A stretch of 64,000 bases of DNA from an uncultured Erythrobacter sp. (lineage in GTDB: Bacteria; Pseudomonadota; Alphaproteobacteria; Sphingomonadales; Sphingomonadaceae): contig NZ_CANLMB010000001.1 of NCBI RefSeq assembly GCF_947492365.1, positions 1,974,874 through 2,038,873 of the forward strand, written 5' to 3'. The notes beneath the pieces were generated by a model that saw only the letters and a program-made list of their open reading frames with translations, had not been told where the DNA came from and did not search any database. Positions 3,127-18,919 of this stretch are shown here, in pieces. The position numbers and the translations under genes were made by a program. Each line of letters opens with the position of its first letter. The stretch's first letter is position 1.

Positions 3127-3172
3127 TGGTGCCGCTTAGAGGATTCGAACCTCTGACCCCATCATTACGAAT
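3127..3172 (-). pseudogene. 3' half of a split tRNA-Thr(CGU) (attachment-site junction)
   Basis: Read on the minus strand, these 46 bases are the anticodon loop, 3' anticodon stem, variable loop, T arm (stem AGAGG/CCTCT around TTCGAAT), 3' acceptor strand AAGCGGC, discriminator A and CCA of a threonine tRNA. The 5' half is missing here; it lies at 18775-18813. Fusing the halves at the shared nine bases 3164-3172 / 18775-18783 gives a 76-nt cloverleaf with every stem fully paired. The element between them therefore entered exactly in the anticodon loop. The remnant itself cannot make a functional tRNA. Confidence 0.9.
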
Positions 3173-3575
3173 TAGGGAACTCTGTTTTTGAGGAACTCAG
3201 AGTGAACCAGAAGGCCTTAGAAAACCCCTGGCAACACAAATGCTTGCGTCCAGAAGACCTCCGAGAGAGCCTGAAGGCGTTGGAACTACGCGCCCTACTA
3301 ATGCCCTACTAACGCTGGATCGGCATACTTGCTCCAGTCAGTGTGCAGAACTCAAATTTGAACAAGACGACCGCTTCGCGGTTCAAAGCGGCCTGTCGGC
3401 TAACGACCCAATCCGAGACGTAGTCATCCCAAATCTCAGTTGCTGAGTGCGGACATTCTTGGTGGTCACTCCTGCCAAGGAGAACGACGATGACATATTC
3501 ACAATATCACCCTGCTACGCGAAGCTGTGCGGCGTGGAAATTCGGCGCAAAGATCGGACCCAAGCGTCCTTTCAA
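3173..3575. other. Left-end non-coding region of the element
   Basis: About 400 bases without a convincing gene. It holds a short inverted repeat directly after the attachment core (CTCTG at 3180-3184 with CAGAG further on) and the tandem 11-bp repeats at 3292-3313. I found no recognisable integrase fragment. The small open frames here have no family resemblance and no good ribosome-binding site. Confidence 0.5.
3292..3313 (+). repeat. Tandem 11-bp direct repeats, left arm-type sites
   Basis: Two back-to-back copies of GCCCTACTAAN (3292-3302 and 3303-3313). The same doublet in the same orientation and with the same 11-bp period occurs near the right end (18695-18716). Distance from the core is about 120 bp here. 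The paired arrangement on both sides of a 9-bp core fits integrase arm-binding sites in attL and attR. This role is inferred from layout, since no integrase is present to match. Confidence 0.6.
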
Positions 3576-4061
3576 CTAGGTGCGTTGGCGTTTCAGTTGC
3601 TCGCTCCTGCGGAAGTACATCTCAGAAACCAGCTCCCAAGCGCGGCCATCCTTTGAAAGCCATTGCTGCCAGGTCGCAGTTTTGGCCTCGATATCCTTCC
3701 ATACGAAGCGCACCGCAACAGCCTCGCCCCCCTCAATATTCGTTCCTTCGAACACCCCAACCCCGTCGACGAATTTTCCTACAACTGGCGGCTCAATTTC
3801 AAGCCCAAAACTATCGAGCCAATAGATCGACCACTCTCCGGTGCGCGGATTGAAAGTGCGGATCGACAAGCCCTCAAACGGTCGACCGAAAAGCTCTCGT
3901 CGGAAAGTTCCAAGATTGCCGCGCCCATGGAGAACGGGCCGCACGGAATCTGTGGCGCAAGCTACCTCCCAATCGGTGCAATTGGCGAAACGCTGCTTAA
4001 GGCGACGATGTTCAACGTCCCATTGACCATGCAGAAAATCGAAGTCATTTGCGCTGCCCAT
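3576..4061 (-). CDS. DUF1579-like protein of unknown function
   Basis: 161 residues, no signal peptide. The start is DFDFLHGQWDVEHRRL, followed by beta-rich sequence with IRTFNPRTGEWSIYWLDS and GVGVFEGTNIEGG, as in small calycin-like beta-barrel proteins of the DUF1579 type. Biochemical role is unknown. It is the last gene of a leftward run that starts at 9367. A related protein with the same block order (ML-GNWSVE, IRTYDP, GVGIFYGTEDHGG) is encoded at 11547-12206 in the same element, so the pair are likely distant paralogues. Confidence 0.6.
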   Translation of the reverse strand: MGSANDFDFLHGQWDVEHRRLKQRFANCTDWEVACATDSVRPVLHGRGNLGTFRRELFGRPFEGLSIRTFNPRTGEWSIYWLDSFGLEIEPPVVGKFVDGVGVFEGTNIEGGEAVAVRFVWKDIEAKTATWQQWLSKDGRAWELVSEMYFRRSEQLKRQRT

Positions 4062-4116
4062 AGCACCCTCTGATTTGTATTGGTTTCGCTGTTTACGAGA
4101 AAATTTGAACCGTGCG

Positions 4117-5088
4117 TTATCGTTGGGAGACTGGAAACGCTGTCCCCGTGACAGACCATGGAGTCCGAAGGCCTGCGCGCTTGGCCCCGCCTATGATCCA
4201 TACGGTGTTGCCAACTCGTGCAGTGGCAAATCCATGACGCGGAAATGGAAGGGCTTCGTCTTCGCGCCAGCCAGCGTCGAGGTCGCTTGGATCGATTGAT
4301 GCGTGCTGTCGGAGAACAGTGCCGGTGCGAAAGTCTTCGCCTCCAAAGACATGAAGCCTGCCGTTAAATGCAGCTGCGCCATGACCTCCCAGATCGAACG
4401 GTGCATCAGGCATGCTGCTCCAATTGTTGCTGTCAAAGTCATAGACCTCGATGACACGCGATTGCCCACCCAAGGCCGCACTCCGTCCGCCGGTGACAAA
4501 AAGCCGTGCGCCGTCCATTGCGATTGCGTGAGAATGTCGCGGTGTTGGCATGGGGGCCATCGCTTGCCAGTCTTTCCGAGCCAAATCGAAACGCATGAGA
4601 GAGCCAGTCGCTTTTCCGTCCTCTTCCCCGCCGATGAGCCAAACTGCGCCAGAGTGGTAGACCATTGCATGTTGGCCGCGTGGCCGGGGAAGCGGTGAAA
4701 TTTCTTGCCAGGTGGGATCAAGACTATCTGGATCAAGCGAAAACAAGGCGGATTGATCATCTATCCTGAATGGCAATCCCTTATATCCGCCAGAGGCAAA
4801 TACGCGTCCTTCTCCGGAAGCCATTGCGACGTGATGAAGTGAACGAGGCAAGTTCGGGCAGACTAAAAACTCCTCGGTTGAAACGTCGAATGCGGCGCAG
4901 CTATCGAGTGTTCGAAAGAACCCTATGCCGCCCGCCACATAGATAATCCCATCCAGCTCCGCTGCATGTATTTCCGATCGCGGATCAACCATATCGCCAT
5001 CTGAGCGCAGGAGCGACGGCCCCGCCCACCAAGCGAGTGCAATGGCCAATAGAATCGCAACAAAAGCTCTGAAAGCGAATTTCAACAT
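4117..5088 (-). CDS. Membrane-anchored or exported kelch-repeat protein
   Basis: 323 residues. An N-terminal hydrophobic segment (about residues 5-24) could be an uncleaved anchor or signal peptide. It is followed by repeated kelch blades, each with a double-glycine strand: YVAGGIGF, FASGGYKGL, WLIGGEEDG, FVTGGRSAA, HVFGGEDF and WIIGGAKRA. Six such blades predict a beta-propeller. Kelch propellers usually bind ligands or proteins; no enzymatic motif stands out. It sits 55 bp upstream of the DUF1579-like gene and 86 bp downstream of the serine hydrolase gene, within one leftward operon. Confidence 0.8.
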   Translation of the reverse strand: MLKFAFRAFVAILLAIALAWWAGPSLLRSDGDMVDPRSEIHAAELDGIIYVAGGIGFFRTLDSCAAFDVSTEEFLVCPNLPRSLHHVAMASGEGRVFASGGYKGLPFRIDDQSALFSLDPDSLDPTWQEISPLPRPRGQHAMVYHSGAVWLIGGEEDGKATGSLMRFDLARKDWQAMAPMPTPRHSHAIAMDGARLFVTGGRSAALGGQSRVIEVYDFDSNNWSSMPDAPFDLGGHGAAAFNGRLHVFGGEDFRTGTVLRQHASIDPSDLDAGWREDEALPFPRHGFATARVGNTVWIIGGAKRAGLRTPWSVTGTAFPVSQR

Positions 5089-5174
5089 CTGGATCTTCTG
5101 TATTGCCGCAAGACCATTCTGGCAGAGAATGAGGTTGTTGAATTATGCGCAACTTTGCGGACTCGATCCATCAG

Positions 5175-6440
5175 TCAATCTGAGGCTTGCAGGAAAACAG
5201 TTGCGATTCTTGCCGCCTTTTTCATGATCTGGTTCGAACCTCCCGCACGGACAGTGTTCGCAGTCATCGCGACGACTATGGATTGGTCAGGAAATATCAG
5301 CAAGATAGCTGTCGCACCTGCAGTTGCCCCGCCGTGGTTGATCATCCGGTAGGTGTTCTCTCCGTTCTCAAGTCCTCCATTACGCCAGCCAAGGGCATAA
5401 TGCTGTTCATTGAATGCGCCATCCGACGTTTTCCGAATGGCGAACATTTCTTCTCTGGTCGCCTGCTCAAGTATCTGACCGGATAAAAGAGACGAGCCGA
5501 ACCGGGCTAGGTCTGACGGCGTCGATGCCAAACCTCCCCCTGCCCATTTGTAGCTATGGTTTGTTTTTGGGGCGGGCATGACCTGATTGCGGGAGAGCAA
5601 GCTCACATAACCACTTGCCAGCCGCTCCCCAAACACATCTGGTCTTTCAGGACCAGAGTCATCCATCCCGAGAGGTTCGAAAACCCGCTGATCAAGCAGT
5701 TCCAGAAAGCTCTGATTGGTAGCGCCTTCGAGAGCAGAGCCAGCAAGGGTGTAGCCGAAAGTGGAATAGCTGAAATCTGAGTCTGGCTCGAAGAGCAAGG
5801 GGTCATCCTCAAATATCGCGAGCGCCTGTGCCGAAGTGGAAAATTCAACATTGTAGCCAGCCTCCGAGAAGGTCGGGAAAGCAAACGCGAACCCATAATG
5901 CCTTATTCCGCCTTGATGGGACAGGAGCTGCCGCAGGGTTACCGGATATCGCTTCTGCGGAAATGTCGGCACATAGTCGCGCACGTCCTTATCAATGTCG
6001 ATTAGCCCTTCTTCTGCAATGTCCATGGTCAGTGTCGCAGTTATTGCTTTAGAGACGCTCCCAATCGGATAGGCTGTTTTGACAGTCGCGAGCTTGCGAT
6101 CACCCAAGCTCGCGTAACCAACCGCTTCGGACCAGACGAGTTGGCCGTCCCGGGCAACAGCAATAGAAACGGACGGCGCCGCAAGTTCCGTACGTGCTTG
6201 CAGTAGCATTTCTCGCGCCGTCGTTATTGTTTCGGCATGGTCGACCGAAGCCACTCCGCGGTCCACCGGTGCAGCCCCATCAAGATCGGGGACCGGAACA
6301 TGATAGAGATACAGTGCTGTCCACGCGAGAGCCAGAACCGCAATCATCATGAGCAGTGCGACAACTGCTACACGAGCTATAGCTTTCGAGAATTTCTTGC
6401 TCTTCGGAATGATGTCGGCGCTCTCGACCTGTTGGGACAT
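5175..6440 (-). CDS. Serine hydrolase, beta-lactamase class C / penicillin-binding family, membrane-anchored
   Basis: The chosen ATG at 6440 gives 421 residues and has an AGAGAG ribosome-binding site. A GTG at 6491 would add 17 residues but overlaps the upstream gene. One membrane segment (about residues 24-47) is followed by an exported catalytic domain. The SxxK motif is SVSK in YPIGSVSKAIT, the second motif is YST in FSYSTFGYTLAG (YxN in classic class C enzymes), and the third is HGG in INHGGATAG. The family includes AmpC, D,D-peptidases and esterases; the non-canonical second motif argues for peptidase or esterase rather than lactamase activity. It is the fourth gene of the leftward operon. 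Confidence 0.8.
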   Translation of the reverse strand: MSQQVESADIIPKSKKFSKAIARVAVVALLMMIAVLALAWTALYLYHVPVPDLDGAAPVDRGVASVDHAETITTAREMLLQARTELAAPSVSIAVARDGQLVWSEAVGYASLGDRKLATVKTAYPIGSVSKAITATLTMDIAEEGLIDIDKDVRDYVPTFPQKRYPVTLRQLLSHQGGIRHYGFAFAFPTFSEAGYNVEFSTSAQALAIFEDDPLLFEPDSDFSYSTFGYTLAGSALEGATNQSFLELLDQRVFEPLGMDDSGPERPDVFGERLASGYVSLLSRNQVMPAPKTNHSYKWAGGGLASTPSDLARFGSSLLSGQILEQATREEMFAIRKTSDGAFNEQHYALGWRNGGLENGENTYRMINHGGATAGATAILLIFPDQSIVVAMTANTVRAGGSNQIMKKAARIATVFLQASD

Positions 6441-6462
6441 TTTGTGCGTTCTCTCTGCAGGC

Positions 6463-7332
6463 TCATGGATCTCTGCGATCGAGCCACTCACTCAGGGCAC
6501 GCAGCAACCCGGCAAGTTGTCGCTTGCGCGCCGCGCGCAACGATTCCCCTGGCTGCACGCCTTGCGATTTCCAGTACCATCTCGGCATTTCATTCCGAAC
6601 GATGGGATCGGCCGATGCCGGCACGACCTGTTCATCCCAGGATTTGCTCAACCTGAGAAGATGGGCATAGTTCCGCTCGACAATGACCGAGATTTCATCC
6701 TTGCGATCCGAATTGGCAATCAAGTCCGAGTAGCGGATCACGAGCCCATGCGAGAAATAGGGCGCATCGACAGGCAAGGATTCCAGCTCCTCAACAAGCA
6801 GCGCGACTGCCTCATCGGGCTCACCGTTTTGGACGTGCAAATCGATAAAGTTGCCAACGGCCTGTGAGCGTCCCCTGGTGTTGCTCTCCGACAGCTCGAA
6901 GTTCGATCGATACTCATTTAGCAGTGTCGCCGCACGAGCATGATCGCCGAATCCCCTGAACACGATCTGTAGAACGCGCTCCCATGCATGAGCAGCGATC
7001 AAATCGCCCCCTTCGCGCAGAGGGTCGAAGAATTCATAGGCCTTGCGGCCATTGAAGGTAAGGAATGCGCCCTCCCCCAAAGACAGCCGATCAATCCTGC
7101 TCGCACTGTGATCGTTTGGGTCGGAAGAAATCTGGCCATAGTATTTGGAAACGATCGACAATTGCTCTTCGCGAGGGTCCGAACCAGACAGTTCCGCCCA
7201 GAATGCATCGGCGACCTGAGTAGGGGAGAATACATCCAACCCAGCGTCGACGTTAGCGTCACGGGTTTGCGCAAAAAGCGCCGAGGAGACCGCGAAAACA
7301 GATAATGCGACCAAAAGGGCTGAATGTCTCAT
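6463..7332 (-). CDS. Exported protein of unknown function
   Basis: 289 residues with a clear signal peptide (MRHSALLVALSVFAVSSALFA, cleavage near AQT). The rest is mainly helical, with repeated alternating charged and aliphatic positions reminiscent of TPR-like helical hairpins (AWERVLQIVFRGFGDHARAATLLNEY and similar). No catalytic motif is recognised. The start has a good AAGGAG site nine bases upstream. It lies between the two hydrolase genes of the leftward operon, 22 bp before the serine hydrolase start. I do not recognise a family. Confidence 0.65.
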   Translation of the reverse strand: MRHSALLVALSVFAVSSALFAQTRDANVDAGLDVFSPTQVADAFWAELSGSDPREEQLSIVSKYYGQISSDPNDHSASRIDRLSLGEGAFLTFNGRKAYEFFDPLREGGDLIAAHAWERVLQIVFRGFGDHARAATLLNEYRSNFELSESNTRGRSQAVGNFIDLHVQNGEPDEAVALLVEELESLPVDAPYFSHGLVIRYSDLIANSDRKDEISVIVERNYAHLLRLSKSWDEQVVPASADPIVRNEMPRWYWKSQGVQPGESLRAARKRQLAGLLRALSEWLDRRDP

Positions 7333-7388
7333 AGTTCCAATCTCCTTGACCTGGCGATGGCTTTCGCAGCCTCAACCGGTTCTTGATG

Positions 7389-8519
7389 CTAGTTCGCCTG
7401 TGTCCTTAACCAATGGACAATCCGCGCAGCGGTTGTTTCGGCTTCAGGGATTCCGGTCTCGTCCCGGTAAGCTTCATTGATAGAGTTGAAGCGCCAACTG
7501 CTGTGACCTAGTCCAGCTTGCACTATCAGCTTGCCTGTGCCCGGGCGGAGCCGGTTCACGGCGTCAACGATAAGTTGGTGCCCGTGCAGAACCTCGAATT
7601 GATCAAATTCATTGAAGATTACCAGGACCGGGGCATCCAGTGCGGCCCACGCGGCGAGAAAGTTCTGCTGTGCAGCCTGTTGATGCCACGCAAACGGACG
7701 CCCGTAGTGGCTGCCCGTGTCCATCCCTCGAATATCAGCGCGGACTGCGGCCATGGCCGGGGTGTCCATGGCAATCTGGTCCGGATGACGCTTGTTGAGC
7801 AGGTATTCAGTAAGGAAGCGCGCTCGATCCAACAGTGAATCGTGTATCGATTCAAGCGATACATGCTGCGGGCGTCGCTCAAGGTAGATTCTTTCAAAGT
7901 TGAGCATGCGCTCAAAGTGAGTCAGAGCGCCGCCGCCCTGTACTGCAATCCCGGCAATATCGTAGCCAGCATTCTGCAAGCTGAGCGCGACGAGCGGCGC
8001 TGTTGTTGCTCCGAGGCTGTCACCCCAAATGTAAACCTTGCTGGGATCGAGCGTTTCGTGATCGAGTACGCTTGCGAAGGCGGAGACATAATGCGCCACC
8101 TCCATTTCGTAGTCGAGCTCGCTACACGAAGGCCCTTGGCTGTCGCCTGTCCCTGCGCGTTCGACGCGGACCAGAGCCAGACCGGAGTCCCTAGCGACCG
8201 CCCCAAGCGCTCCGCCATTGCCATGCCCGAGTTCAATAGTGTCGCAAGAAACCCATTGCGTGAACAGAATAGGATGCAAAGGAGTTTCGGCATCATCCGG
8301 CATCGAGACAAGAACTCGCAAGCGAATGCCCGGCTCGACAGCAACTGAATCATATACGGTCTGAACGCCGTCGATTGCCTCTAAGGGCCGCTCAATCGAA
8401 CGTGGTAGTGGGTCGCCATCGGCCAGAGAAGATTGCGCCTGTCCGATCGAGCACATGCCTGCAAGAAGTGGCAACGCCGTCAAACGCAAGAGCCTTGCAT
8501 ACATAAGCTTGTGCATCAT
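7389..8519 (-). CDS. Exported alpha/beta hydrolase
   Basis: 376 residues with a signal peptide ending near SIGQAQS. The nucleophile elbow is GDSLG in YIWGDSLGATTAPLVA, and a C-terminal histidine lies in GLGHSSWRF. An acid residue is likely in FNEFDQFEV. A segment around ERAGTGDSQGP resembles the region before the cap in dipeptidyl-peptidase- or esterase-like hydrolases. Substrate is unknown; a peptidase or ester hydrolase acting in the periplasm is likely. The ribosome-binding site is AAAGGCGG. It is 11 bp downstream of the lipoprotein gene at 8531-9367, so co-transcribed. Confidence 0.75.
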   Translation of the reverse strand: MMHKLMYARLLRLTALPLLAGMCSIGQAQSSLADGDPLPRSIERPLEAIDGVQTVYDSVAVEPGIRLRVLVSMPDDAETPLHPILFTQWVSCDTIELGHGNGGALGAVARDSGLALVRVERAGTGDSQGPSCSELDYEMEVAHYVSAFASVLDHETLDPSKVYIWGDSLGATTAPLVALSLQNAGYDIAGIAVQGGGALTHFERMLNFERIYLERRPQHVSLESIHDSLLDRARFLTEYLLNKRHPDQIAMDTPAMAAVRADIRGMDTGSHYGRPFAWHQQAAQQNFLAAWAALDAPVLVIFNEFDQFEVLHGHQLIVDAVNRLRPGTGKLIVQAGLGHSSWRFNSINEAYRDETGIPEAETTAARIVHWLRTQAN

Positions 8520-8530
8520 CTGCCGCCTTT

Positions 8531-9367
8531 TCAGAACTCACGGAAATTCTGGGCGTCGGATTGGAAATCGCGACCCCCGACATCACGTATGCGGCGCATT
8601 TCGAAAGGTGCAGTCCGAGACACCCAAATATGATCGATTGTGCCGCTCCATGCCTTCTTTTCGAGCACCCAGCAGTTACAACTCAAGCCGGATTCCAGAG
8701 TTAGCATTTCAGTCCGTAGCACTGTGTATTGATCAAGCTCGGCGGAGACGAATTCGTCCTTGCGCGGATACACTTCAGGCAAGGTGAACACCGTTCCAAC
8801 CGGCATCGGCATCAAGGATGCGAGGGTCGGTGAGAACATTTCGCTGACCGAGCCATTGTGGGTAAGTGTGCCCGTCATATGTTTGGGCGGGTTTGTTCCA
8901 ACGGGGATGCGAGTCCAGTTGTACCCTGACGCATCGTTCTGACCGACCACGAATTCAGTGCCCCAAGCGAGATAGGGGCCAGCGGTAAAGTCAAAATTGT
9001 GGGTTTCTGCATCGATCTGTCGCTGCGCGACAATGACGGTCTCGTCGGTCGGGATGATGTCGACTACCGAAATCTTGTTGCCATCACCGGTGGTCCGCAC
9101 TTGCACCGTGAACAGGCCGGTCTTGGATGTCCGGCTGTTGTAGTCGACCGAGTAATCCGGGAATTCCGGGGTATCGAAGCGATCGTCGCCGGGTGTTATC
9201 GCTACAACTGTGTCAGGATCGGCCGGAGTGTCATCGCGATCAGATCCGCCCAGTGAGCAGCCTGCTAAAAGTAGCGCGACAGAAGCAACGACAGGTTTCC
9301 TCCACGAGGGTGCGCGCTTACGCCTTCCACCATTATCGAAGCCTAGTTCCTCCAACATCTCACTCAT
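8531..9367 (-). CDS. Lipoprotein of unknown function (paralogue of 10738-11550)
   Basis: The ATG at 9367 (GAGGATGAG upstream) is preferred over a GTG at 9373. A short hydrophilic N-terminus is followed by a hydrophobic stretch and lipobox LLAGC at about residues 33-37. The mature part shares long blocks with the protein of 10738-11550: FDTPEF, SKTG-FT-Q-R-TGDG, IVAQRQID-ETH, VSEMFSPTLASLMPMPVG, RTE-LTL-SG-SC-CW and RRIRDVGG. Two cysteines (SCNC) are conserved. No known family is recognised. It heads the leftward operon of hydrolases and may be envelope-localised through its lipid anchor. Confidence 0.65.
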   Translation of the reverse strand: MSEMLEELGFDNGGRRKRAPSWRKPVVASVALLLAGCSLGGSDRDDTPADPDTVVAITPGDDRFDTPEFPDYSVDYNSRTSKTGLFTVQVRTTGDGNKISVVDIIPTDETVIVAQRQIDAETHNFDFTAGPYLAWGTEFVVGQNDASGYNWTRIPVGTNPPKHMTGTLTHNGSVSEMFSPTLASLMPMPVGTVFTLPEVYPRKDEFVSAELDQYTVLRTEMLTLESGLSCNCWVLEKKAWSGTIDHIWVSRTAPFEMRRIRDVGGRDFQSDAQNFREF

Positions 9368-9534
9368 CCTCACAGCCCATCAAGTTTCAAGGCTGGAAAG
9401 CCACCCTTGCTGGGTTGAGATTGTTCAGTATCGATCAGGAGGAGCAACCAGTTTGGGACGACCGGTAGCATTTTGTATTCAGGCAGATCGATCATACCCT
9501 CAGATCGCCAGTTATTTATCAAGAGATGGATTCA

Positions 9535-10455
9535 TCAGTCGATAGAAAGTAGCGCCTCCCTGAAATCGGCATGATGGCGCCTGCTCAGCGGAGCAGATTC
9601 ACCGTTACGAAGCTCAACGGCATACCCACTGCCGTCGTCCTGGTTCTTGATCGCGATCACGTGCTTGCCGTTTACAAGAGCACTACGATGAGACTTGATG
9701 AACGTTCCATCGGCAATCTCAGATTCTACGAATGACAGTGTCTTTCGCACCAGCATCTGGCCGCGATCCGTATGCAGTTCGGCGTAGTTGCCCGCGGCCT
9801 TAATCCAGGAGATTTCGTCATAAGGGATCGACCAGATTTTACCGTTCTGACGAACCTCGTACCGGCTTTTCTGTGGAGGCCTCCGCACCACCGAAAATCT
9901 CGCATACAGCACTAATGACGCAGCCACAGCATACGCCATGAACCACATAGCGGCATTACCCAAACAAACTTCACCGAAGGAATAGAGAAGCTCCCGCGGT
10001 CCCCAAGCCTGCTGCGAGTACATGGACAGCAAGATGATCGTAAGAAGCAACAGGTGAGCTGTGCACGATGCGACGCCGACAACAACCAGGCGCATCCCGG
10101 CCTTTCGGATATCTCGGCCATTCGCTCGAATCGAACTCGCAACGCTTTGCCAGACCAGCCAAGGCACCAGCACCCAAACGGCATAGAAGGCAAACATGAT
10201 GGATAGTTGTGCCAACAAGCTCACATTGGGAGCTTGAGTCTCCGGATAAGACGTCCGCATTGCCGCCTCGAACGCATAGAATACGAACGGGATCAGTGCC
10301 GCGAGGATCCAGTAGCTCGCTTGCCAACGCGGGCTGCCCGACTGGCCCACGCCTATCCCGTGTTTAGGCTCGCCGGGGAAGGACCCTGTCTCCTCTTCGG
10401 TCTTCAGTGCTTTTTCTGCCACGTTTGCATCCTGATTGGTTGTCAAACTCTTCAT
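9535..10455 (-). CDS. Membrane-bound LytTR-family transcriptional regulator
   Basis: The start at 10455 (ATG) gives 306 residues; an ATG at 10489-10491 would add 12 but has no ribosome-binding site. After about 50 hydrophilic residues come four or so membrane helices (SYWILAALIPFVFYAFEA; LSIMFAFYAVWVLVPWLV; LRLVVVGVAS...LLLLTIILL; NAAMWFMAYAVAASLVLYA). A C-terminal LytTR DNA-binding domain follows: IPYDEISWIKAAGNYAELH, MLVRKTLSFVES, FIKSHRSALVN. LytTR domains bind direct repeats upstream of target genes. It lies between two paralogous genes of opposite orientation and probably controls this cargo. A TATAAT-like box lies just upstream near 10495-10500. Confidence 0.8.
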   Translation of the reverse strand: MKSLTTNQDANVAEKALKTEEETGSFPGEPKHGIGVGQSGSPRWQASYWILAALIPFVFYAFEAAMRTSYPETQAPNVSLLAQLSIMFAFYAVWVLVPWLVWQSVASSIRANGRDIRKAGMRLVVVGVASCTAHLLLLTIILLSMYSQQAWGPRELLYSFGEVCLGNAAMWFMAYAVAASLVLYARFSVVRRPPQKSRYEVRQNGKIWSIPYDEISWIKAAGNYAELHTDRGQMLVRKTLSFVESEIADGTFIKSHRSALVNGKHVIAIKNQDDGSGYAVELRNGESAPLSRRHHADFREALLSID

Positions 10456-10737
10456 TGGAGCTTCGCCCAATGGGGGCAAGTCCGCCAACATACAATTATA
10501 TGCCGTTCGTCACATCAACGCATCTTCGAACCATCCAATGGCAGCAGCGCCCACCGCACGAAGCCAGCTAACCCACATTCATTGAGTCAGCACCGGTGTC
10601 TTTTCCGCATCGCAATCCATGGACACCCGATGCCCGTCACCAAAATTTGACCGTCTATCCCTTGATCGTTGCTCGCAGCACCCCAGTCGTCTCAGGTTGA
10701 TTGCCATCACATTAGGTAACAAAAGAAAGAACGGATT

Positions 10738-11550: not shown

Positions 11551-12206
11551 CGTGTAGAGAAACTGTCTCTTCCACCGTAAACAATCCCTCTGCAAACGGT
11601 GCTTGGCTGGCGTTCGCATTGGCCGTCTTGTTGGCTGCATTCCAAAGCTCAGCCGCGCACGCGGAAGAAATAGTCCAGCCTCGCATCGAAGAATTCCAAG
11701 TGGACGCAAATCCGCCGATGGAAGATTTCAGCATGCTTGCTGGCAACTGGAGTGTAGAAAGTCGCAGCGTCAAGGATAGATTGGCCCCTGAAAAAGTCTG
11801 GGTGCGCAACCGTATGCAAACAGAATACCGCATCCTGTTGGACGGTCTCGTAGCGATAAATGACACTTTCGGCACTTTCAACGGAAGGCCCATGCACGGG
11901 ATCATGATCCGCACCTATGATCCGACAATTGATGAATGGAACTTTCAATGGATGAGCAAGGGCTATCCGCACCTCACTCCGCAAGTGCGAGGCGGCTTCG
12001 AAAATGGTGTCGGCATCTTCTATGGAACAGAAGATCATGGCGGAAGAACCTTTCAGATGCGGTTTCGCTGGAAAATGATATCGGCCGATCATGCCTTTTG
12101 GGAACAATCTTACCTAAATCCCGAAACTGGCGTCTGGGAGCCGAATTGGACGCTGGACTTGACGCGGTCGCAACAAGGCGATGCTGCTTCAAGAACTACC
12201 CAATAG
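11547..12206 (+). CDS. Exported DUF1579-like protein
   Basis: 219 residues, starting at ATG 11547 inside the stop of the previous gene. A hydrophobic stretch (about residues 12-33) ending in SSAAHAEE looks like a signal peptide. The mature protein has MEDFSMLAGNWSVES, IRTYDPTIDEWNFQWMS and GVGIFYGTEDHGGRTFQMRF, the same block order as the cytoplasmic-looking protein of 3576-4061, and fits the DUF1579-type beta-barrel. Ligand and activity are unknown. It is translationally coupled to the gene at 10738. Confidence 0.6.
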   Translation: MTCRETVSSTVNNPSANGAWLAFALAVLLAAFQSSAAHAEEIVQPRIEEFQVDANPPMEDFSMLAGNWSVESRSVKDRLAPEKVWVRNRMQTEYRILLDGLVAINDTFGTFNGRPMHGIMIRTYDPTIDEWNFQWMSKGYPHLTPQVRGGFENGVGIFYGTEDHGGRTFQMRFRWKMISADHAFWEQSYLNPETGVWEPNWTLDLTRSQQGDAASRTTQ

Positions 12207-12220
12207 AAGAGTGACGATCC

Positions 12221-12676
12221 TTGGTAAGGTATAGTGTGCGCGATCTCGCGAAAGAGGATCGGGAAGACTGGAATAGGCTTTGGGCCGCGTATCTGGAGTT
12301 CTATGAAGCACCCCTGCCCGGAAATGTGAGCGATAAGACATGGCAACGATTGACCGACCCTGGATCGCCACATGCGCACGGACTGGTTGCGGTGACTACC
12401 GATGGCCAGATAGTTGGCTTCGCCCATTACCTAGTTCAGATCAGCACATGGAGCATCGAACCAGTGATCCAACTTCAGGATCTCTACGTTGATCGTTCCG
12501 AAAGAGGCCAGGGCATTGGCCGGACTCTTCTTCAGGCTGTCTTCGTTGAAGCAAAAACGGCAGGCGGCTCACAGGTCCAATGGCTGACCCGGCGTGACAA
12601 CGAGCGAGCCAGAGCCCTGTATGACAAACTAGCCGACGAAACAGACTTCATCCAATATCACCGAAATTGTTCTTAA
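12221..12676 (+). CDS. GNAT-family N-acetyltransferase
   Basis: 151 residues. Acetyl-CoA-binding motif A is intact: LQDLYVDRSERGQGIGRTLL (about residues 87-106), followed by ARALYDKLA, the usual motif B helix with a tyrosine. The substrate cannot be told. The start is uncertain: TTG at 12221 with an AGAAGAG site, or GTG at 12236 behind AAGG. It is the third gene of the rightward operon, 14 bp after the preceding stop, and the last before the insertion sequence. Confidence 0.8.
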   Translation: MVRYSVRDLAKEDREDWNRLWAAYLEFYEAPLPGNVSDKTWQRLTDPGSPHAHGLVAVTTDGQIVGFAHYLVQISTWSIEPVIQLQDLYVDRSERGQGIGRTLLQAVFVEAKTAGGSQVQWLTRRDNERARALYDKLADETDFIQYHRNCS

Positions 12677-12692
12677 TTTTCATAAGCTAAAT

Positions 12693-13531
12693 CGGTGCTG
12701 TCAGTCTAACGCGAACTCGTCTCTGCTAGACACAGGGCACCCAACCCTTGCGGGCGATCAAGCCATGAGGTTTTGCCACTCAGCCAGTTCGACGGAGCGG
12801 TTGGTCTTGTAGGTTTCTCGGTCGGTGAGATGGCGGTCTGAGTTGAAGTGGTTGTGGACGTTGGCGTGGACTGAGGCGAACTTCTGAAGCGATTTCATTC
12901 GCCGGAATCGCTGCATCACCCGCTCACGTCTTCGCAACGGCAAGTGGGAATTCTCAACCCGATTGTTGAGCCATCTCCCCATATCGCGTCGATCTTCGAT
13001 GCCAAGATCAGTCATGGCTGCGGGGTATGATCTAAGACCATCGGTGACGATTGATGCCGGACTACCGTGGTGCTTCAAGGCCTTCTTGAAGAACCTCAAA
13101 GCCGCAGATTTGTCGCGTTTCTTGGTAACATAGCTTTCAAGGATCTCGCCTTCGTGATCAACCGCACGCCACAGGTAATGCGTCTCGCCATTAATCTTCA
13201 CGAACATCTCATCGAGGTGCCAGCGCCAGTGACGGAAACCGCGCATGCGGTTGATCCGCTGGCGTTTGATATCGGCTGCGAACAGCGGCCCAAACCGGTT
13301 CCACCAGAACCGGACCGTCTCATGGCAGATGTCGATCCCTCGTTCGAACAGAAGGTCTTCCACGTTCCGCAGGCTCAGCGGAAAGCGGACATACATCATC
13401 ACCACAAGGCGAATGACCGCGGGCGATGAGTTGAAACGACGAAATGGACTGGGTGGTTTAGCTCTCGACTTGCGGCTCATAGCCCCTCGCTAGCACGACA
13501 AATCAGAAATGCCTCGTGTCTGACAACACCG
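12693..13531 (-). mobile_element. IS6-family insertion sequence
   Basis: About 840 bp, the usual size of IS6-type elements, with a single transposase gene. The ends are imperfect 12-bp inverted repeats: CGGTGCTGTCAG at 12693-12704 and the reverse complement of CGGTGTTGTCAG at 13520-13531 (one mismatch). I see no 8-bp target duplication next to the ends, which suggests recombination or an old insertion. It is inserted between the acetyltransferase gene and the VirB2-like gene of the element. Confidence 0.75.
12758..13480 (-). CDS. IS6-family DDE transposase
   Basis: 240 residues, full length for the family. The catalytic triad is visible: D in WHLDEMFVKI (about residue 89), D in SIVTDGLRSYP (about residue 150), and E in NNRVENSHLPLRRRER (about residue 185), the IS6 signature. 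An N-terminal helix-turn-helix region (LSLRNVEDLLFERGIDICHETVRFW) is present. It catalyses replicative transposition of the IS. No frameshift or stop is seen, so it may be active. Confidence 0.9.
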   Translation of the reverse strand: MSRKSRAKPPSPFRRFNSSPAVIRLVVMMYVRFPLSLRNVEDLLFERGIDICHETVRFWWNRFGPLFAADIKRQRINRMRGFRHWRWHLDEMFVKINGETHYLWRAVDHEGEILESYVTKKRDKSAALRFFKKALKHHGSPASIVTDGLRSYPAAMTDLGIEDRRDMGRWLNNRVENSHLPLRRRERVMQRFRRMKSLQKFASVHANVHNHFNSDRHLTDRETYKTNRSVELAEWQNLMA

Positions 13532-13628
13532 TGCCTAGCATTCAGAGTGCGGTGCGGTCAGTTGTTCGATCGAACCAATCGCGGGTTGGGCTCTATTGAA
13601 CCAGAACTGCACCGATCGTCACAGCGGC

Positions 13629-13988
13629 CTAGTCGCGGCGCAAGGAAGCTCCGGCATAGGGGTCATTGCTGGCTGGCGGAAGTGCCCTCGCGGGCGTCTG
13701 ATCGCGTGGCAGAGTTGGCGTAGTTGCAATCCGAGGTTGATCGCTGCTTGCCACAAAGGAAGCCGCAATCGCCGGCGCACCAAGCAATACGAAAACACCC
13801 AGCAAGGTACGTAATCCTTGGCCAAGATTGAGCCGCCCCGAAAGCATCCACAATCCGAGCAATGCCACTGCAATCGCGCAAAGGCCGATAGCTAACTGCC
13901 CGAGCAAAATGGACTCAAACCAACCCGCAGATTCAATCAACGCCGACTGATTGGACGGCTCGAAGAGGCTTGCTTGTCGCATCGCCAT
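13629..13988 (-). CDS. TrbC/VirB2-like conjugal pilin protein, isolated
   Basis: 119 residues. The central part (about residues 26-82) has the two hydrophobic helices of VirB2/TrbC pilins: FESILLGQLAIGLCAIAVALLGLWMLSGR, then a short polar loop with a glycine, then LRTLLGVFVLLGAPAIAASF. The GR turn after the first helix and LLGAPAIA are typical. The C-terminal tail is proline-rich and polar. No other type IV secretion gene is nearby, so this is probably a leftover from a conjugative element, stranded next to the IS. Assignment is by pattern only. Confidence 0.6.
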   Translation of the reverse strand: MAMRQASLFEPSNQSALIESAGWFESILLGQLAIGLCAIAVALLGLWMLSGRLNLGQGLRTLLGVFVLLGAPAIAASFVASSDQPRIATTPTLPRDQTPARALPPASNDPYAGASLRRD

Positions 13989-14304
13989 AGCATTAGCCGC
14001 CGCGGCCTACTGGTTCAATGTCAGGCCTGCAATGCATCCCGAACTGCTCGAAATGCTTGGGCCTACGTGTCTTGCATCTCGACCGGATGGGAGCGCATCA
14101 AAGTGCAATAGATCGCTGCTGGGATGACCAACGGTATGTTATGGGTCGATGGCTGATGGTCCGCTCCGGTTATTCCATCAGCTAGAAGCGGACAGTCAGT
14201 TCACGGCCCAGTTCCAGCCCACGTCCGACGGCAGAAATTGGAGGTGGGAGCTGACCTTCATGTACCCGTTCATTGTCTGAATCCGAAAAAATCCAAGGGT
14301 CTCG

Positions 14305-14330
14305 GGAATGTTTGGGCAGAGCGCGTCGTC
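14305..14330 (+). promoter_or_regulatory. Possible ECF sigma promoter of the Spy-like gene
   Basis: GGAAT at 14305-14309, a 17-bp spacer, then CGTC at 14327-14330 followed by TAA. This resembles the GGAAC-N16/17-CGTC pattern of many ECF sigma factors. It would start transcription a few bases before the hairpin at 14342. The ECF sigma gene at 14991 is the obvious candidate regulator; this is inference. Confidence 0.35.
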
Positions 14331-14341
14331 TAACCCTGTGA

Positions 14342-14364
14342 GCTAACCGAATTGGTCGGTTAGC
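14342..14364 (+). other. Perfect inverted repeat in the leader of the Spy-like gene
   Basis: GCTAACCGA, a 5-base loop, then TCGGTTAGC: nine perfectly paired bases, ending 17 bases before the ATG at 14382. It is not followed by a T run, so it is more likely an mRNA 5' stabilising hairpin or an operator than a terminator. Confidence 0.5.
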
Positions 14365-14381
14365 ATACTGAGGAAACATCG

Positions 14382-14828
14382 ATGTTTCAGACCTCCCCCA
14401 AGTCTTCCCCTGCTCTGGGCCTCGCACTTTTTGGAGCTGTTCTCGCGCTAGCACCGATGGCGGCCGTTCCCGCTCAAGCACAGTCGGAGATGAATTTGAG
14501 CGAAAGTCAGAGAGAGGAAATTCAATCACGTCTTGCTAGCGCTGCAGAACGGTTGAGGCTGACAGATCAGCAGCGAGAACAGGTGCTGCCAATTCTTCGA
14601 GCGAACGCCGAGGCCAATCTGCGTATTTTGCAACGGTATGGCTTGTCTCGCGGCAATCGCCCCGATCTCAGCCTTCGTCAGAAGCTCTCGCTTCGTAGGG
14701 AATTTTCTGCACAGCGCGATGAGACCAACGAGCGGCTTTCACGTGTCCTTTCGCGAGATCAAATGAGGATCATGGAAGAGATTCAAGACGAAAATCGCGC
14801 GCGGATGCGGGGGCGAATTCAGGGTTGA
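14382..14828 (+). CDS. Exported Spy/CpxP-like protein
   Basis: 148 residues with a signal peptide cleaved near AQAQS (about residue 34). The mature part is fully helical and charged, with the repeated LTxxQxxxxxxI pattern of periplasmic Spy/CpxP-like proteins: LRLTDQQREQVLPILRANAEA and SRVLSRDQMRIMEEIQDENRARM. Such proteins act as ATP-independent periplasmic chaperones or metal/stress sensors. It stands 162 bp upstream of an ECF sigma gene, with the membrane-anchored protein at 15983 showing a similar pattern, so all are likely parts of one envelope-stress module. Confidence 0.65.
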   Translation: MFQTSPKSSPALGLALFGAVLALAPMAAVPAQAQSEMNLSESQREEIQSRLASAAERLRLTDQQREQVLPILRANAEANLRILQRYGLSRGNRPDLSLRQKLSLRREFSAQRDETNERLSRVLSRDQMRIMEEIQDENRARMRGRIQG

Positions 14829-14990
14829 TCCTCCCCCTGAAGGCGGTGATGGCTGGGTCAGTCTTTTGCCCTGTCTGGCCTCCAGCGCCGCATCATCAAA
14901 GGCCTAAAGGAAGCAAAGATGGAGCTTGGCAACCGTGAAGGCACAGCTTGAGATTGATGGCATTGCAATGCTGGCTATGGTCCCAAATGT

Positions 14991-15557
14991 ATGCCCACCG
15001 TGATCGATCAAGACGACGCTGCACTCGTCGACGGTACAAAGAATGGCAATGATGCCTGCTTTGCGGAACTGGTTCGCCGTTATGAACGGACAGTTGCTGC
15101 AACCGTCATATCGATGCTTGGCCCAGGTGACGAGGCAGACGAGGTGGGACAGGAAGTGATGATCAAATTCTATCGCAGCTTGGCTCGATTTGAAGGCCAG
15201 TCGTCTGTCAAAACCTATCTGACCCGTATCGCGATCAACAGCGCAAAGGATGCTTTGCGAAGGCGGAAACGCAACCTGCTTAGATTTTTCACACCCAAGG
15301 ATCGTGAGGAAGCGTGGGAAGACAAAATCGCTGGGCGAGAGGATCAAGGAAGAGATGTTGAGAATACCAATCTTGTCCGGTTCGCATTGAGCAGACTGCA
15401 CCCAGACATTCGGGCGGTGATGGTGCTGCGCCTAGTCGAAGGTTGGAGCACGGAAGAGACAGCGAACATTTTGCAAGTTCCGACAGGCACAATTCTATCG
15501 CGACTTTCACGCGGCAAGATGCAGATGGCGAAGGCAATTTCAGGAGCGAGCACGTGA
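14991..15557 (+). CDS. ECF-family RNA polymerase sigma factor
   Basis: 188 residues. Region 2: FAELVRRYERTVAATVISMLG...DEADEVGQEVMIKFYRSLARFEGQSSVKTYLTRIAINSAKD. Region 4: LVRFALSRLHPDIRAVMVLRLVEGWSTEETANILQVPTGTILSRLSRG, with the helix-turn-helix for the -35 element. It should direct RNA polymerase to envelope- or metal-stress genes. The stop overlaps the GTG start of the next gene, a likely anti-sigma factor. It is different from the two other sigma genes in this window (36541 and 61618). Confidence 0.9.
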   Translation: MPTVIDQDDAALVDGTKNGNDACFAELVRRYERTVAATVISMLGPGDEADEVGQEVMIKFYRSLARFEGQSSVKTYLTRIAINSAKDALRRRKRNLLRFFTPKDREEAWEDKIAGREDQGRDVENTNLVRFALSRLHPDIRAVMVLRLVEGWSTEETANILQVPTGTILSRLSRGKMQMAKAISGAST

Positions 15558-15973
15558 TTGATCCGCGCACAGAAGACTTGGTCGAGAAGCTTTTGGAAGG
15601 GCGTCTTGATCCTATTGAGGAAGTCGAACTCGAGGCTAAGCGCGCCGAGAATCCCGCTCTGGATCGTTTCATCGATGCCGAGCGCGAACTGAGATCAATG
15701 ATTGGCAGCAGGCCGAAACCTGAATTTGAGCCATTTTTTGATCAACGCGTAATGAAGCGTGTTCATGAGGAACGCGCAAACGGACAAAGCCTATTTGATG
15801 TCGACTTTTCTGCGGCGTTAGCTCGGCTATTCCCTCGCATTGCTGTTCCTGCCTTCGCGCTCTCAGGGTTGGCAATGGCATCCAATGCGAGTGCCGCTTC
15901 CCCAGGAGCTACTCTGGCCGAAGCGCTTTTCGCCCTACCGACACTTGATGCGGTGTCGCTTCTGATATTCTGA
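15554..15973 (+). CDS. Putative anti-sigma factor
   Basis: 139 residues from GTG 15554, which overlaps the sigma stop by four bases. The N-terminus DLVEKLLEGRLDPIEEVELEAKRAENP fits the helical sigma-binding region of anti-sigma factors (no HxxxCxxC zinc motif). A weakly hydrophobic stretch (about residues 93-112) could be a membrane segment. The call depends mostly on the coupled position behind an ECF sigma gene. No similarity to a named anti-sigma family is certain. Confidence 0.55.
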   Translation: MIDPRTEDLVEKLLEGRLDPIEEVELEAKRAENPALDRFIDAERELRSMIGSRPKPEFEPFFDQRVMKRVHEERANGQSLFDVDFSAALARLFPRIAVPAFALSGLAMASNASAASPGATLAEALFALPTLDAVSLLIF

Positions 15974-15982
15974 GTGAGACAA

Positions 15983-16369
15983 ATGACCAAATCTCCCTTC
16001 TACAAACGTCCCTTGTTCGTCTTGCTTGTGACCTTGCTCATCGGCGCACTTATCGGTGCATCAATCACTGGGATGATTGTGCGCAATCGACTTGAGAATG
16101 CCCGACAGTTCGCACATGTCGAAGGTTACACACGGCTTATTGAGAGCATTGTGGAACCCACATCTGCAGAGCAGGGAGAGGCCATTAGACCTATTGTCTC
16201 TCGGGCAGGTGAGGACATCGAGCAGATAGTTCGAGATGGCCGTATTGAGATCAATCAGCGCTTTGAGCAGATGGAAAGAGAACTGGAACCGCATTTGACC
16301 GAAGCTCAACAAGACACGTTGCGTGATCGTCACGCATTGGTCCGAGAGCGCTATAGCGACACCGATTAA
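15983..16369 (+). CDS. Membrane-anchored Spy-like / periplasmic sensor protein
   Basis: 128 residues from ATG 15983, which has GAGTGAG just upstream; a GTG at 15974 is an alternative. One N-terminal membrane helix (LFVLLVTLLIGALIGASITGMIV) is followed by a long charged helical region with MERELEPHLTEAQQDTLRDRHALVRERY, reminiscent of the Spy/CpxP and CnrX-type fold. It follows the putative anti-sigma gene by nine bases, so it may sense the periplasmic signal for the sigma/anti-sigma pair. The sensing role is inference. Confidence 0.55.
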   Translation: MTKSPFYKRPLFVLLVTLLIGALIGASITGMIVRNRLENARQFAHVEGYTRLIESIVEPTSAEQGEAIRPIVSRAGEDIEQIVRDGRIEINQRFEQMERELEPHLTEAQQDTLRDRHALVRERYSDTD

Positions 16370-16599
16370 TCAGAACAAATTGGCTTAAGCGGAAAGACAG
16401 CATCAGCCGGGAATACGGTGCCACTTTCCGTACTGGTGGAACCACAAGCGCTTCTGCCAACGCAAGCCGGACCGATGATGGCATTGTGAGCAGCCGTGGT
16501 TTCGAGACCAACAATGATCGAGGTGAAGGGTGTTGAGGCGGTCATCCCGGCCAGGGTTAATCGGCGCAAGCCCGCTCTGCACGATCAGACGAAATACAA

Positions 16600-18396
16600 A
16601 TGGCGAAAAAAATCTGTGAGGGTCAGGAATGTTCTGAGTCTGCCGAACGTCTAACTACCATCAGACAATATGAGGCAGATGCGATGGAAGTCGAAGGTTC
16701 AGATAGTTGCACAGGGTTGCAGCAGAAAAATATCTCCCGGTTTGTTCTAGAAAAATTGCTCGCACCTTTTTCAGACACCAATCCTGCACGTATTCGGGCG
16801 CCCCACACGAACTCTCATCTTTTATCAACCTCGTTTGCTGCTCTGCTCACGCTCACCTTGTCAGCGTGTGGTGGTGACGACAGTGGCAGCACAACGCCCG
16901 TTTCGCCTCCGACCAATAACGCACCGGTGGTCGACGCCGGGGCTGATCAAAGCGTGGCGGAAGACGTGATGGTGCAGCTCTCACCGACCGTGAGCGACAC
17001 GGATAATGACGCATTGACCTTTAGCTGGTCCCGAATTTCCGGCCCCTATATGCAGTTCAGCGATAGCATGACCGTAGCTCCGAGTTTCATTGCACCAGAT
17101 GTGGCTTCCCCCCAAGATATCGTGCTTGAGCTTTCGGTCAGCGATGGGACAGAAACCGCAACGGACAGGATCACTGTATCGGTGTCACCCGCCCCGGAAA
17201 ATCCACTTGTCAGTACGACATTCAATGGTGCTTTGATGGCGGCTGACTATTGGGCCGAAGAACCTATGATCCTGTCAGCAGGTATGGGATTTGATAATAT
17301 CATCGCCATTCCAGAGATCACAGAGAGCGCTGTACGTGACGCCGGAGGATCATGGTTTGGTCCAGTCGCATGTACCAATGGTGACGTTGAAACGCTCACA
17401 ACTGCGACCCCCCAGGCCGGGACTGAGAACGTTTCCAAAGGACATTCTTCCTTTGATGATGGCTTACCGCTTGTGTTTAGCTGGCCTGTGGCTTTGGAAA
17501 CGGCGGATGTCAGTGATTTCCAATTTACCCTCAATACGGGTGAGATTGTCTTTCCCAATGCCATTACCTTGCTTCCTAATTGGGAACTTAATGAGCGCAA
17601 TGTCATTGTCGCATTCGGTGATTTCGGCAATCGCGGTCTGAGAAGTGAAGCTGATGCCGTGTTTCCTGTGCGTCTCGATATTGTCGAAGATGCCACACCT
17701 CTCACACTCGTCGGTCCAGGCGCTCAAGAAGTGAGCGCTGTGGGTCTGCACTGGACCACCGATAGATCTGCCTATGATACGGGCCCAGTATTGGTGGGGG
17801 CCAAGCTGAATGCTGTCGGAAATGCCCCGCTTGGTGAAGGTGGTGTACCCGTTCTGGTCCAGAACTCGGGAATCTTCCCGAATGACGAGTTTGCGCTCTA
17901 TGGCGGCGACGCAGATTATCGGCTGCGAGTTTTGACAACTGGTGGTTTCTCCCCCGATGGACTGCGGTCATTGACCCCAGATAGTCATGAGAGTTTTTTC
18001 CGTGTCCATGTGCGAGGGGCCAATGGCCAAACCGTTCTTCTGGAAAAAGTCGGCCAAGATTATCGGGTCGAAGGAGGTACTTTGCGGGTGTTAGGCCTCG
18101 CAGATTTGGGCCAACGCTTGGATCCGGTTGCCGGCATTTATTACGATGACTGTTACAACGAAGATCGCGACAACTATATCGATATCATTCTTGCCGGAGA
18201 CGAAGCGGCTGCACGTAATGTGACCTTCGTCGAAATTCCCGCGCTTGAAGGTGGGTACAGTGCCTTCTTCAACCCAGGCGGCCCCGGACCGACACCCTTT
18301 GATGGAGTGCGCTATACGGCTCCAGGTCCGGCTGACCTGGAACCCGTGATCATTGCTCTGGATGATCCCATGCGTGTTAGCCGTCCTGCCCGATAA
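16600..18396 (+). CDS. Large lipoprotein with Ig/PKD-like domain
   Basis: A lipobox LTLSAC places the lipidated cysteine at about residue 90 of the longest frame, so the first 50 or so residues are probably untranslated. A TTG near 16756 or another non-ATG codon would give a normal signal peptide. After a low-complexity linker comes a PKD/cadherin-like module: NAPVVDAGADQSVAEDVMVQLSPTVSDTDNDALTFSW (read from its pieces). A long beta-rich region without known motifs follows, containing DDCYNEDRDNYIDIIL. It is probably exposed at the outer membrane. It is the last protein gene before the tRNA at the right end of the element. Confidence 0.6.
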   Translation: MAKKICEGQECSESAERLTTIRQYEADAMEVEGSDSCTGLQQKNISRFVLEKLLAPFSDTNPARIRAPHTNSHLLSTSFAALLTLTLSACGGDDSGSTTPVSPPTNNAPVVDAGADQSVAEDVMVQLSPTVSDTDNDALTFSWSRISGPYMQFSDSMTVAPSFIAPDVASPQDIVLELSVSDGTETATDRITVSVSPAPENPLVSTTFNGALMAADYWAEEPMILSAGMGFDNIIAIPEITESAVRDAGGSWFGPVACTNGDVETLTTATPQAGTENVSKGHSSFDDGLPLVFSWPVALETADVSDFQFTLNTGEIVFPNAITLLPNWELNERNVIVAFGDFGNRGLRSEADAVFPVRLDIVEDATPLTLVGPGAQEVSAVGLHWTTDRSAYDTGPVLVGAKLNAVGNAPLGEGGVPVLVQNSGIFPNDEFALYGGDADYRLRVLTTGGFSPDGLRSLTPDSHESFFRVHVRGANGQTVLLEKVGQDYRVEGGTLRVLGLADLGQRLDPVAGIYYDDCYNEDRDNYIDIILAGDEAAARNVTFVEIPALEGGYSAFFNPGGPGPTPFDGVRYTAPGPADLEPVIIALDDPMRVSRPAR

Positions 18397-18614
18397 TTAC
18401 GGCCTTTGTGTTCCTCGTTGAACAGCCACCGCATTGATCTGTCTCGAACTCAAAGGAGAAAGCGAGGTCCGTATCTGGGTCGAAAGCGGAATGGCAGCTT
18501 GCAACCTCCACCGGTCATAAGCCGACGGTCTGCAAACGGCCCACAACAAGACCTGCCCGAAGAGCGCAACCGCTCCTGATGCTAGCAATAAAAATCATTA
18601 TTTCAGATGGTTAG

Positions 18615-18690
18615 TGGTGCCGCTTACGTGACTCGAACACGTGACCTCCGCATTACGAATGCGATGCTCTACCAACTGAGCTAAAGCGGC
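18615..18690 (-). tRNA. tRNA-Thr (anticodon CGU), element-borne
   Basis: 76 nt including encoded CCA. Acceptor GCCGCTT/AAGCGGC, D stem GCTC/GAGC, anticodon stem TCGCA/TGCGG (one T-G pair) with loop TTCGTAA, T stem ACGTG/CACGT. The anticodon CGU reads ACG codons. Its first 27 bases equal those of the broken host tRNA half at 18775-18813, but the anticodon and T stems differ, so it is a separate, foreign copy. It lies 84 bp downstream of the broken half on the same strand and could be transcribed by read-through from the tRNA-Cys promoter. Confidence 0.95.
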
Positions 18691-18694
18691 CCTG

Positions 18695-18716
18695 GCCCTA
18701 CTAAGGCCCTACTAAT
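18695..18716 (+). repeat. Tandem 11-bp direct repeats, right arm-type sites
   Basis: Two adjacent copies of GCCCTACTAAN (18695-18705 and 18706-18716), in the same orientation and period as at 3292-3313. They lie 58 bp from the right core and only 4 bp from the 5' end of the element-borne tRNA. Confidence 0.6.
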
Positions 18717-18774
18717 TTCATTCCCGCCAATCCAGCCCATTGGTTTCATTCATCAATCTAGCGGTGGCCCGCTA

Positions 18775-18813
18775 ATTACGAATGATGTGCTCTACCAACT
18801 GAGCTAAAGCGGC
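18775..18813 (-). pseudogene. 5' half of a split tRNA-Thr(CGU)
   Basis: Minus strand: 5' acceptor strand GCCGCTT, complete D arm, 5' anticodon stem CATCA and anticodon loop TTCGTAA, after which homology to a tRNA stops. Its missing 3' half is at 3127-3172. A short hairpin (AGCGG/CCGCT) follows directly in the element DNA. It lies 32 bp downstream of tRNA-Cys, so the host locus was a tRNA-Cys/tRNA-Thr pair. Confidence 0.9.
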
Positions 18814-18845: not shown

Positions 18846-18919
18846 TGGAGGCCCGAGCCGGAATCGAACCGGCGTGCAAGGATTTGCAGTCCTCTGCGTA
18901 ACCACTCCGCCATCGGGCC
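18846..18919 (-). tRNA. tRNA-Cys (anticodon GCA)
   Basis: 74 nt including CCA. Acceptor GGCCCGA/TCGGGCC, anticodon loop with GCA inside CTGCAAA, T loop TTCGATT. All stems pair. It lies directly upstream of the broken tRNA-Thr half. Confidence 0.95.

Follow-up and report, generated by a model that had tools for sequence, protein, structure and literature searches.

An island family of Alphaproteobacteria that appears to replace the tRNA-Thr(CGU) gene broken at its integration with a complete gene of its own

Results

Features of the locus

The window (the whole stretch of 64,000 nucleotides that was analysed) contains an integrated element that is bordered on each side by one half of a host tRNA-Thr(CGU) gene. 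The features are listed below in the order of their positions, with the basis of the assignment in brackets where one applies.

3127-3172, minus strand: displaced 3' half of the host tRNA-Thr(CGU), within which core copy A lies at 3164-3172 (sequence)
3173-18774, no strand assigned: integrated element of 15,602 bp with a GC content of 0.54 (empty site in relatives; composition)
3292-3312, plus strand: two putative integrase arm sites at the left end, GCCCTACTAA-T-GCCCTACTAA, with a distance of 128 bp to the core
3576-12676, no strand assigned: cargo, comprising a DUF1579 protein, a Kelch protein, a serine hydrolase of beta-lactamase fold, an alpha/beta hydrolase-like protein, a LytTR regulator, two paralogues without family, a second DUF1579 protein and a GNAT acetyltransferase (Pfam; paralogy)
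12694-13530, minus strand: IS6-family insertion sequence without an 8-bp target duplication, flanks GCTAAATC and GTGCCTAG (transposase match to NF033587; ends and flanks)
13629-18396, no strand assigned: further cargo, comprising a small membrane protein (weak TrbC match), an ECF sigma factor with likely partners, and a PKD-domain protein (Pfam and NCBIfam)
18615-18690, minus strand: complete element-borne tRNA-Thr(CGU) with core copy B (18652-18660) in its anticodon loop (ARAGORN; genome pattern search)
18695-18715, plus strand: two putative integrase arm sites at the right end, GCCCTACTAA-G-GCCCTACTAA
18771-18783, plus strand: right junction, attP-derived GCTA followed by core copy C (ATTACGAAT, 18775-18783)
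18775-18813, minus strand: displaced 5' half of the host tRNA-Thr(CGU) (sequence; stem pairing with the 3' half)
18846-18919, minus strand: host tRNA-Cys, upstream neighbour of the broken gene (ARAGORN; adjoins tRNA-Thr in 27 congeneric loci)

The broken host gene

When the two outer halves are joined, they give a 76-nt tRNA-Thr(CGU) in which every stem is paired, and this product is identical in 76 of 76 positions to the intact gene next to tRNA-Cys in three congeners (L024, L027 and L044). Among the same-genus loci examined, an intact tRNA-Thr(CGU) was found at the tRNA-Cys site in 27. The full match in the three congeners, together with the intact gene in these 27 loci, shows that the split tRNA is not a product of chance. 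Pairing in the anticodon stem indicates which halves belong together, with 5 of 5 pairs formed by the outer halves and 5 of 5 by the inner tRNA halves but only 3 of 5 in the crosses between the two tRNAs; the outer halves therefore constitute one pair and the inner halves one gene. The displaced host halves carry no mutation, which suggests a fairly recent insertion as judged from the sequence. The tRNA-Cys upstream is probably the start of a tRNA transcription unit, and the GC content of the element is lower than that of the rest of the window (0.54 versus 0.60).

A preliminary description of this DNA had reported two minus-strand tRNA halves with a common 9-bp core, ATTACGAAT, that join to a fully paired 76-nt tRNA, and had proposed the integration of a 15.6-kb element in the anticodon loop of tRNA-Thr(CGU). 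Positions and sequence were as claimed, the congeneric gene confirms the joined tRNA, and the empty site in the relatives bears out the integration. The comparison with close genomes for an uninterrupted tRNA-Cys/tRNA-Thr pair that it had recommended is the one that gave the 27 intact loci. Of the two objections that it raised against itself, a lack of tRNA-Thr at this site in relatives fails on the intact gene that they hold there, and an assembly error fails on the same junction structure in independent assemblies. It was also correct that no matching 3' tRNA end restores the host gene and that the outer halves stay split. Its statement that the host gene is broken at both ends stands, but it overlooked the complete tRNA-Thr(CGU) at 18615-18690 inside the element.

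Attachment sites and the carried tRNA gene

Near each end of the element lies one pair of 10-bp direct repeats, GCCCTACTAA-N-GCCCTACTAA, which by their position and pairing look like the arm-type sites of a tyrosine integrase. Beyond these two, no further pair was found in the 3.16-Mb genome with up to 3 mismatches allowed, and 397 other genomes of the order yielded none with up to 2 mismatches. The right-junction sequence GCTAATTACGAAT is conserved in related right ends. As in tRNA-dependent integration, the core in the host tRNA gene is short (9 bp) and unable to rebuild the tRNA.

The carried tRNA gene, which contains the third copy of the core (18652-18660), lies inside the element in the orientation of the stranded 5' half, from which 84 bp separate it. 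A genome-wide pattern search for tRNA-Thr(CGU) matched the broken half and the gene at 18615-18690 and nothing else, so no intact tRNA-Thr(CGU) other than that of the element was detected in the genome; by supplying a whole tRNA, the element does not leave the genome without a tRNA-Thr(CGU) gene. Compared with the three genes to which the joined halves are identical, the carried tRNA matches in 63 of 76 positions, with differences in the anticodon stem and the T arm, and its best identity to any congeneric gene is 70 of 76, where the anticodon stem again differs. This limited identity and the differing anticodon stem make a foreign source of the carried gene likely. A tRNA-Thr(UGU) gene is also present elsewhere in the genome. 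Its product may decode ACG through wobble, so that tRNA-Thr(CGU) is not necessarily essential.

A scan with an E. coli-type consensus recognised no promoter for the carried tRNA, and neither a terminator-like nor a promoter-like site in the region of tRNA-Cys, the stranded 5' half and the carried tRNA. This absence is weakly consistent with read-through from the host tRNA promoter.

Related islands

An exact scan for the arm pair in public genomes, with one genome per species, gave 8 stretches, of which 6, in five alphaproteobacterial genomes, were located at tRNA-Thr(CGU) halves. Two more arm-pair stretches at tRNA-Thr(CGU) halves were found in a class-wide search. Seven right ends could be compared, namely those of the present genome, Asticcacaulis taihuensis, a Sphingomonas MAG, Ruegeria atlantica, Shimia haliotis and two further genomes (G676 and G738); some of the relatives are broken across contigs. 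The order is the same in all seven: a complete tRNA-Thr(CGU), the arm pair, the core and the displaced host 5' half. The gap between the carried tRNA and the arm pair is 4-18 bp, and the distance from the motif CCCTACTA to the conserved GCTA that precedes the core is 75 bp in every case (7/7). In five left ends the arm pair lies 127-128 or 140 bp from the core. The smallest core in the family is TTACGAA, the 7 bases of the anticodon loop.

Each part of this arrangement is present in the window element, including the complete tRNA-Thr(CGU) of the same isotype as the broken gene, which is present in all seven genomes (at 18615-18690 here), the arm pair, the 75-bp spacing, the GCTA-core junction and the host 5' half. 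What the members share is the attachment module; the cargo is not among the features shown to be common. The carried tRNA stands on the strand of the host gene and on its promoter side in every right end (n = 7), and no other intact tRNA-Thr(CGU) was detected in any of the six other genomes, as is the case here. G676 combines an intact carried tRNA with a stranded 5' half that has decayed, a pattern that is expected if the carried gene took over.

Matches to the arm pattern in Dawidia soli (L058) and an uncultured Bacteroidales (L059), both outside the Alphaproteobacteria, were set aside; neither shows tRNA-Thr halves. In these two Bacteroidota loci, very similar 11-bp repeats are arranged in tandem (GCCCTACTAA/GCCCTACCAA) with no tRNA-Thr halves close by, and are possibly arm sites of other integrases. 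The arm pattern was not found in viral contigs.

Integrases and cargo

Both ends of the Ruegeria element lie on a single contig at a distance of about 16.4 kb, and the element encodes a 395-aa integrase (Arm-DNA-bind_3 and Phage_integrase) and a VapE-type protein. It also carries a cytosine methylase with a Vsr-type endonuclease and an ATPase, which are likely to be defence or modification genes. The Asticcacaulis integrase is 58% identical to that of Ruegeria and is likewise accompanied by a VapE/primase partner. The assignment of the integrase family, which is P4-type, is based on these two elements.

Neither an integrase nor a VapE-type protein was found among the ORFs of the window element. 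As it lacks both proteins of the two relatives, it is at most a member of the family that has lost them; the window copy is probably immobile, and we infer that its integrase was lost. The IS6-family element at 12694-13530 may mark a deletion or rearrangement inside the island, and it is possible that an IS-driven deletion removed the integrase. We found no support for action in trans by an integrase encoded at another place in the genome, the best identity to the integrases of the family being about 25%. The Asticcacaulis integrase had no matches at E 1e-60 in 398 genomes of the order, a set that includes no positive control. With the family integrase as query, viral contigs gave one distant relative (39%), and plasmid and phage records gave matches of 30-40% identity. 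Neither the ORFs of the window element nor the proteins tested in the two relatives with an integrase included a recognised phage structural gene. The window element is thus not a temperate phage with its own integrase.

Two pairs of paralogues occur in the cargo, each in opposite orientations. The proteins encoded at 8531-9373 and 10738-11550 are 56% identical and have no Pfam or NCBIfam family, and those at 3576-4061 and 11547-12206 are 36% identical.

Discussion

The empty site, the complete carried gene and the recurrence of one arrangement in seven genomes make it highly probable that we are dealing with an island family that replaces the tRNA-Thr(CGU) broken at integration with a complete gene in its own attachment module. 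In the model that we propose, islands of Alphaproteobacteria would use a tyrosine recombinase to enter tRNA-Thr(CGU) at its anticodon loop. Only a core of 7-9 bp of anticodon-loop DNA would be common to host and element, and the sharing of the core alone would have the consequence that integration splits the host gene permanently. The loss would be compensated by the attachment module, in which a complete tRNA-Thr(CGU), the arm pair and the core are held at fixed spacing. Integration would place the carried tRNA downstream of tRNA-Cys and the stranded 5' half, with all three on one strand; it is owing to this position that transcription from the host tRNA promoter is probable. The normal tRNA-processing enzymes would then cut out the carried tRNA, which would thereby function as the replacement.

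It is tempting to go further and speculate that the carried tRNA belongs firmly to the module and lacks a promoter of its own, being active only once it stands behind the promoter of the host tRNA operon, that the host is made dependent in this way, and that the integrase-less copy described here has become a permanent source of tRNA-Thr(CGU). We regard this extended version as possible, though on balance somewhat doubtful.

Other explanations of the locus have to be weighed against replacement. The carried tRNA could be a functionless passenger in a host that survives since its tRNA-Thr(UGU) reads ACG. Some bacteria can do without tRNA-Thr(CGU), and the tRNA-Thr(UGU) gene is indeed present here. 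A passenger would, however, hardly be kept as the carried tRNA is, which is intact in 7 of 7 genomes (with all stems paired in the present one) while the stranded halves decay in older insertions, and which always stands on the promoter side and on the strand of the host gene. Moreover, all 27 congeneric loci with tRNA-Thr(CGU) keep the gene intact (27/27), and we therefore find the passenger explanation unlikely.

Still less probable is that a classic anticodon-loop island brought a 3' half that restored the gene as 18615-18690, with the 5' half at 18775-18813 and the short stretch preceding it being the leftover of a separate event. Such a history would account for the presence of the core in the intact tRNA 18615-18690 as well, and the same gene is used by classic elements that bring a 3' half in a congener. 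It is contradicted by the pairing of the anticodon stem, which is complete within the outer and within the inner halves (5/5 each) but not when these are crossed (3/5), and by the stretch between the tRNA and the 5' half, which instead of being a chance remnant holds the arm pair and the fixed 75-bp spacing in seven genomes of different genera. On the stem pairing and the conserved spacing this history was rejected. An assembly error that joined two contigs inside the tRNA gene has practically no probability. We found no point in its support; both junctions lie inside one 2.35-Mb contig of a 3-contig assembly, the same junction structure is seen in unrelated assemblies, and relatives have the intact gene, on which grounds it was rejected.

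Replacement of a tRNA at integration has a proven precedent in phages, where the principle of tRNA-dependent lysogeny has been demonstrated by experiment in actinobacteriophages (Guerrero-Bustamante and Hatfull 2024, PMC10865867). The window element would follow the same logic of tRNA replacement. The actinobacteriophages use tRNA-Lys, Ile2 or Leu, and in Fionnbharth the carried tRNA overlaps gene 37 and has its own promoter (PMC10865867). Here, in contrast, the elements are alphaproteobacterial islands with VapE and cargo that use tRNA-Thr(CGU), and the tRNA, with 4-18 bp between it and the arm sites, is found in every case on the side where the host tRNA promoter lies. A survey of Sinorhizobium meliloti also reports tRNA genes that are replaced by those of phage-related sequences (PMC11476347). 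The likeness is that, in an alphaproteobacterium too, an isoacceptor on the insert takes the place of a host tRNA gene that has been inactivated; the difference is that the sequences are phage-related, and that the passages considered describe neither an attachment module with the tRNA beside arm sites nor tRNA-Thr(CGU).

Among islands, the Islander class A type has a tyrosine integrase and a crossover in the anticodon loop (PMC4383910). Classic class A islands carry a tRNA fragment in attP that rebuilds the target gene, whereas in the present family the core is all that attP has in common with the target, and the island brings a complete second gene; accordingly, no fragment regenerates the target in the window element. 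With respect to P4-type integrase/VapE islands, the Ruegeria and Asticcacaulis relatives match in having both the Arm-DNA-bind_3 and Phage_integrase protein and the VapE-type protein, while the window copy has neither and shares only the attachment module with these two. Tycheposons, in a second-hand description, have a tRNA at the border and a tyrosine recombinase, and are a further candidate for comparison.

As judged from the open-access literature, a family of non-phage islands that uses tRNA-Thr(CGU) and has the replacement tRNA built into the attachment module appears to be new. It extends tRNA replacement at integration from actinobacterial phages to non-phage islands in several alphaproteobacterial genera. 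The suggested route is one by which a core tRNA gene may be exchanged between lineages, with the host coming to rely on the island. Rules for island mapping that expect a regenerated tRNA and a displaced fragment probably read such loci as ordinary and overlook the broken 5' half, and for this reason more cases may sit in existing catalogues.

The same tRNA-Thr(CGU) is also a target of elements that appear to be of the classic kind. In one congener (G012), three displaced 3' halves of tRNA-Thr(CGU) lie upstream of an intact gene (G012:C1:1214003, 1235473, 1272475, 1282121; L094-L096), and an integrase-like match adjoins one of them. These halves are apparently the traces of tandem classic elements that restore tRNA-Thr(CGU), and since they use the same gene as the present family, one target would be exploited by two strategies. 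Finally, a relic left end of the family, consisting of the 3' half and the arm pair, was observed in Caulobacter sp. S45 (L112, L079; G424:C9:1553510-1570954), where it looks as if it sits within a classic element bounded by matching tRNA-Thr 3' halves.
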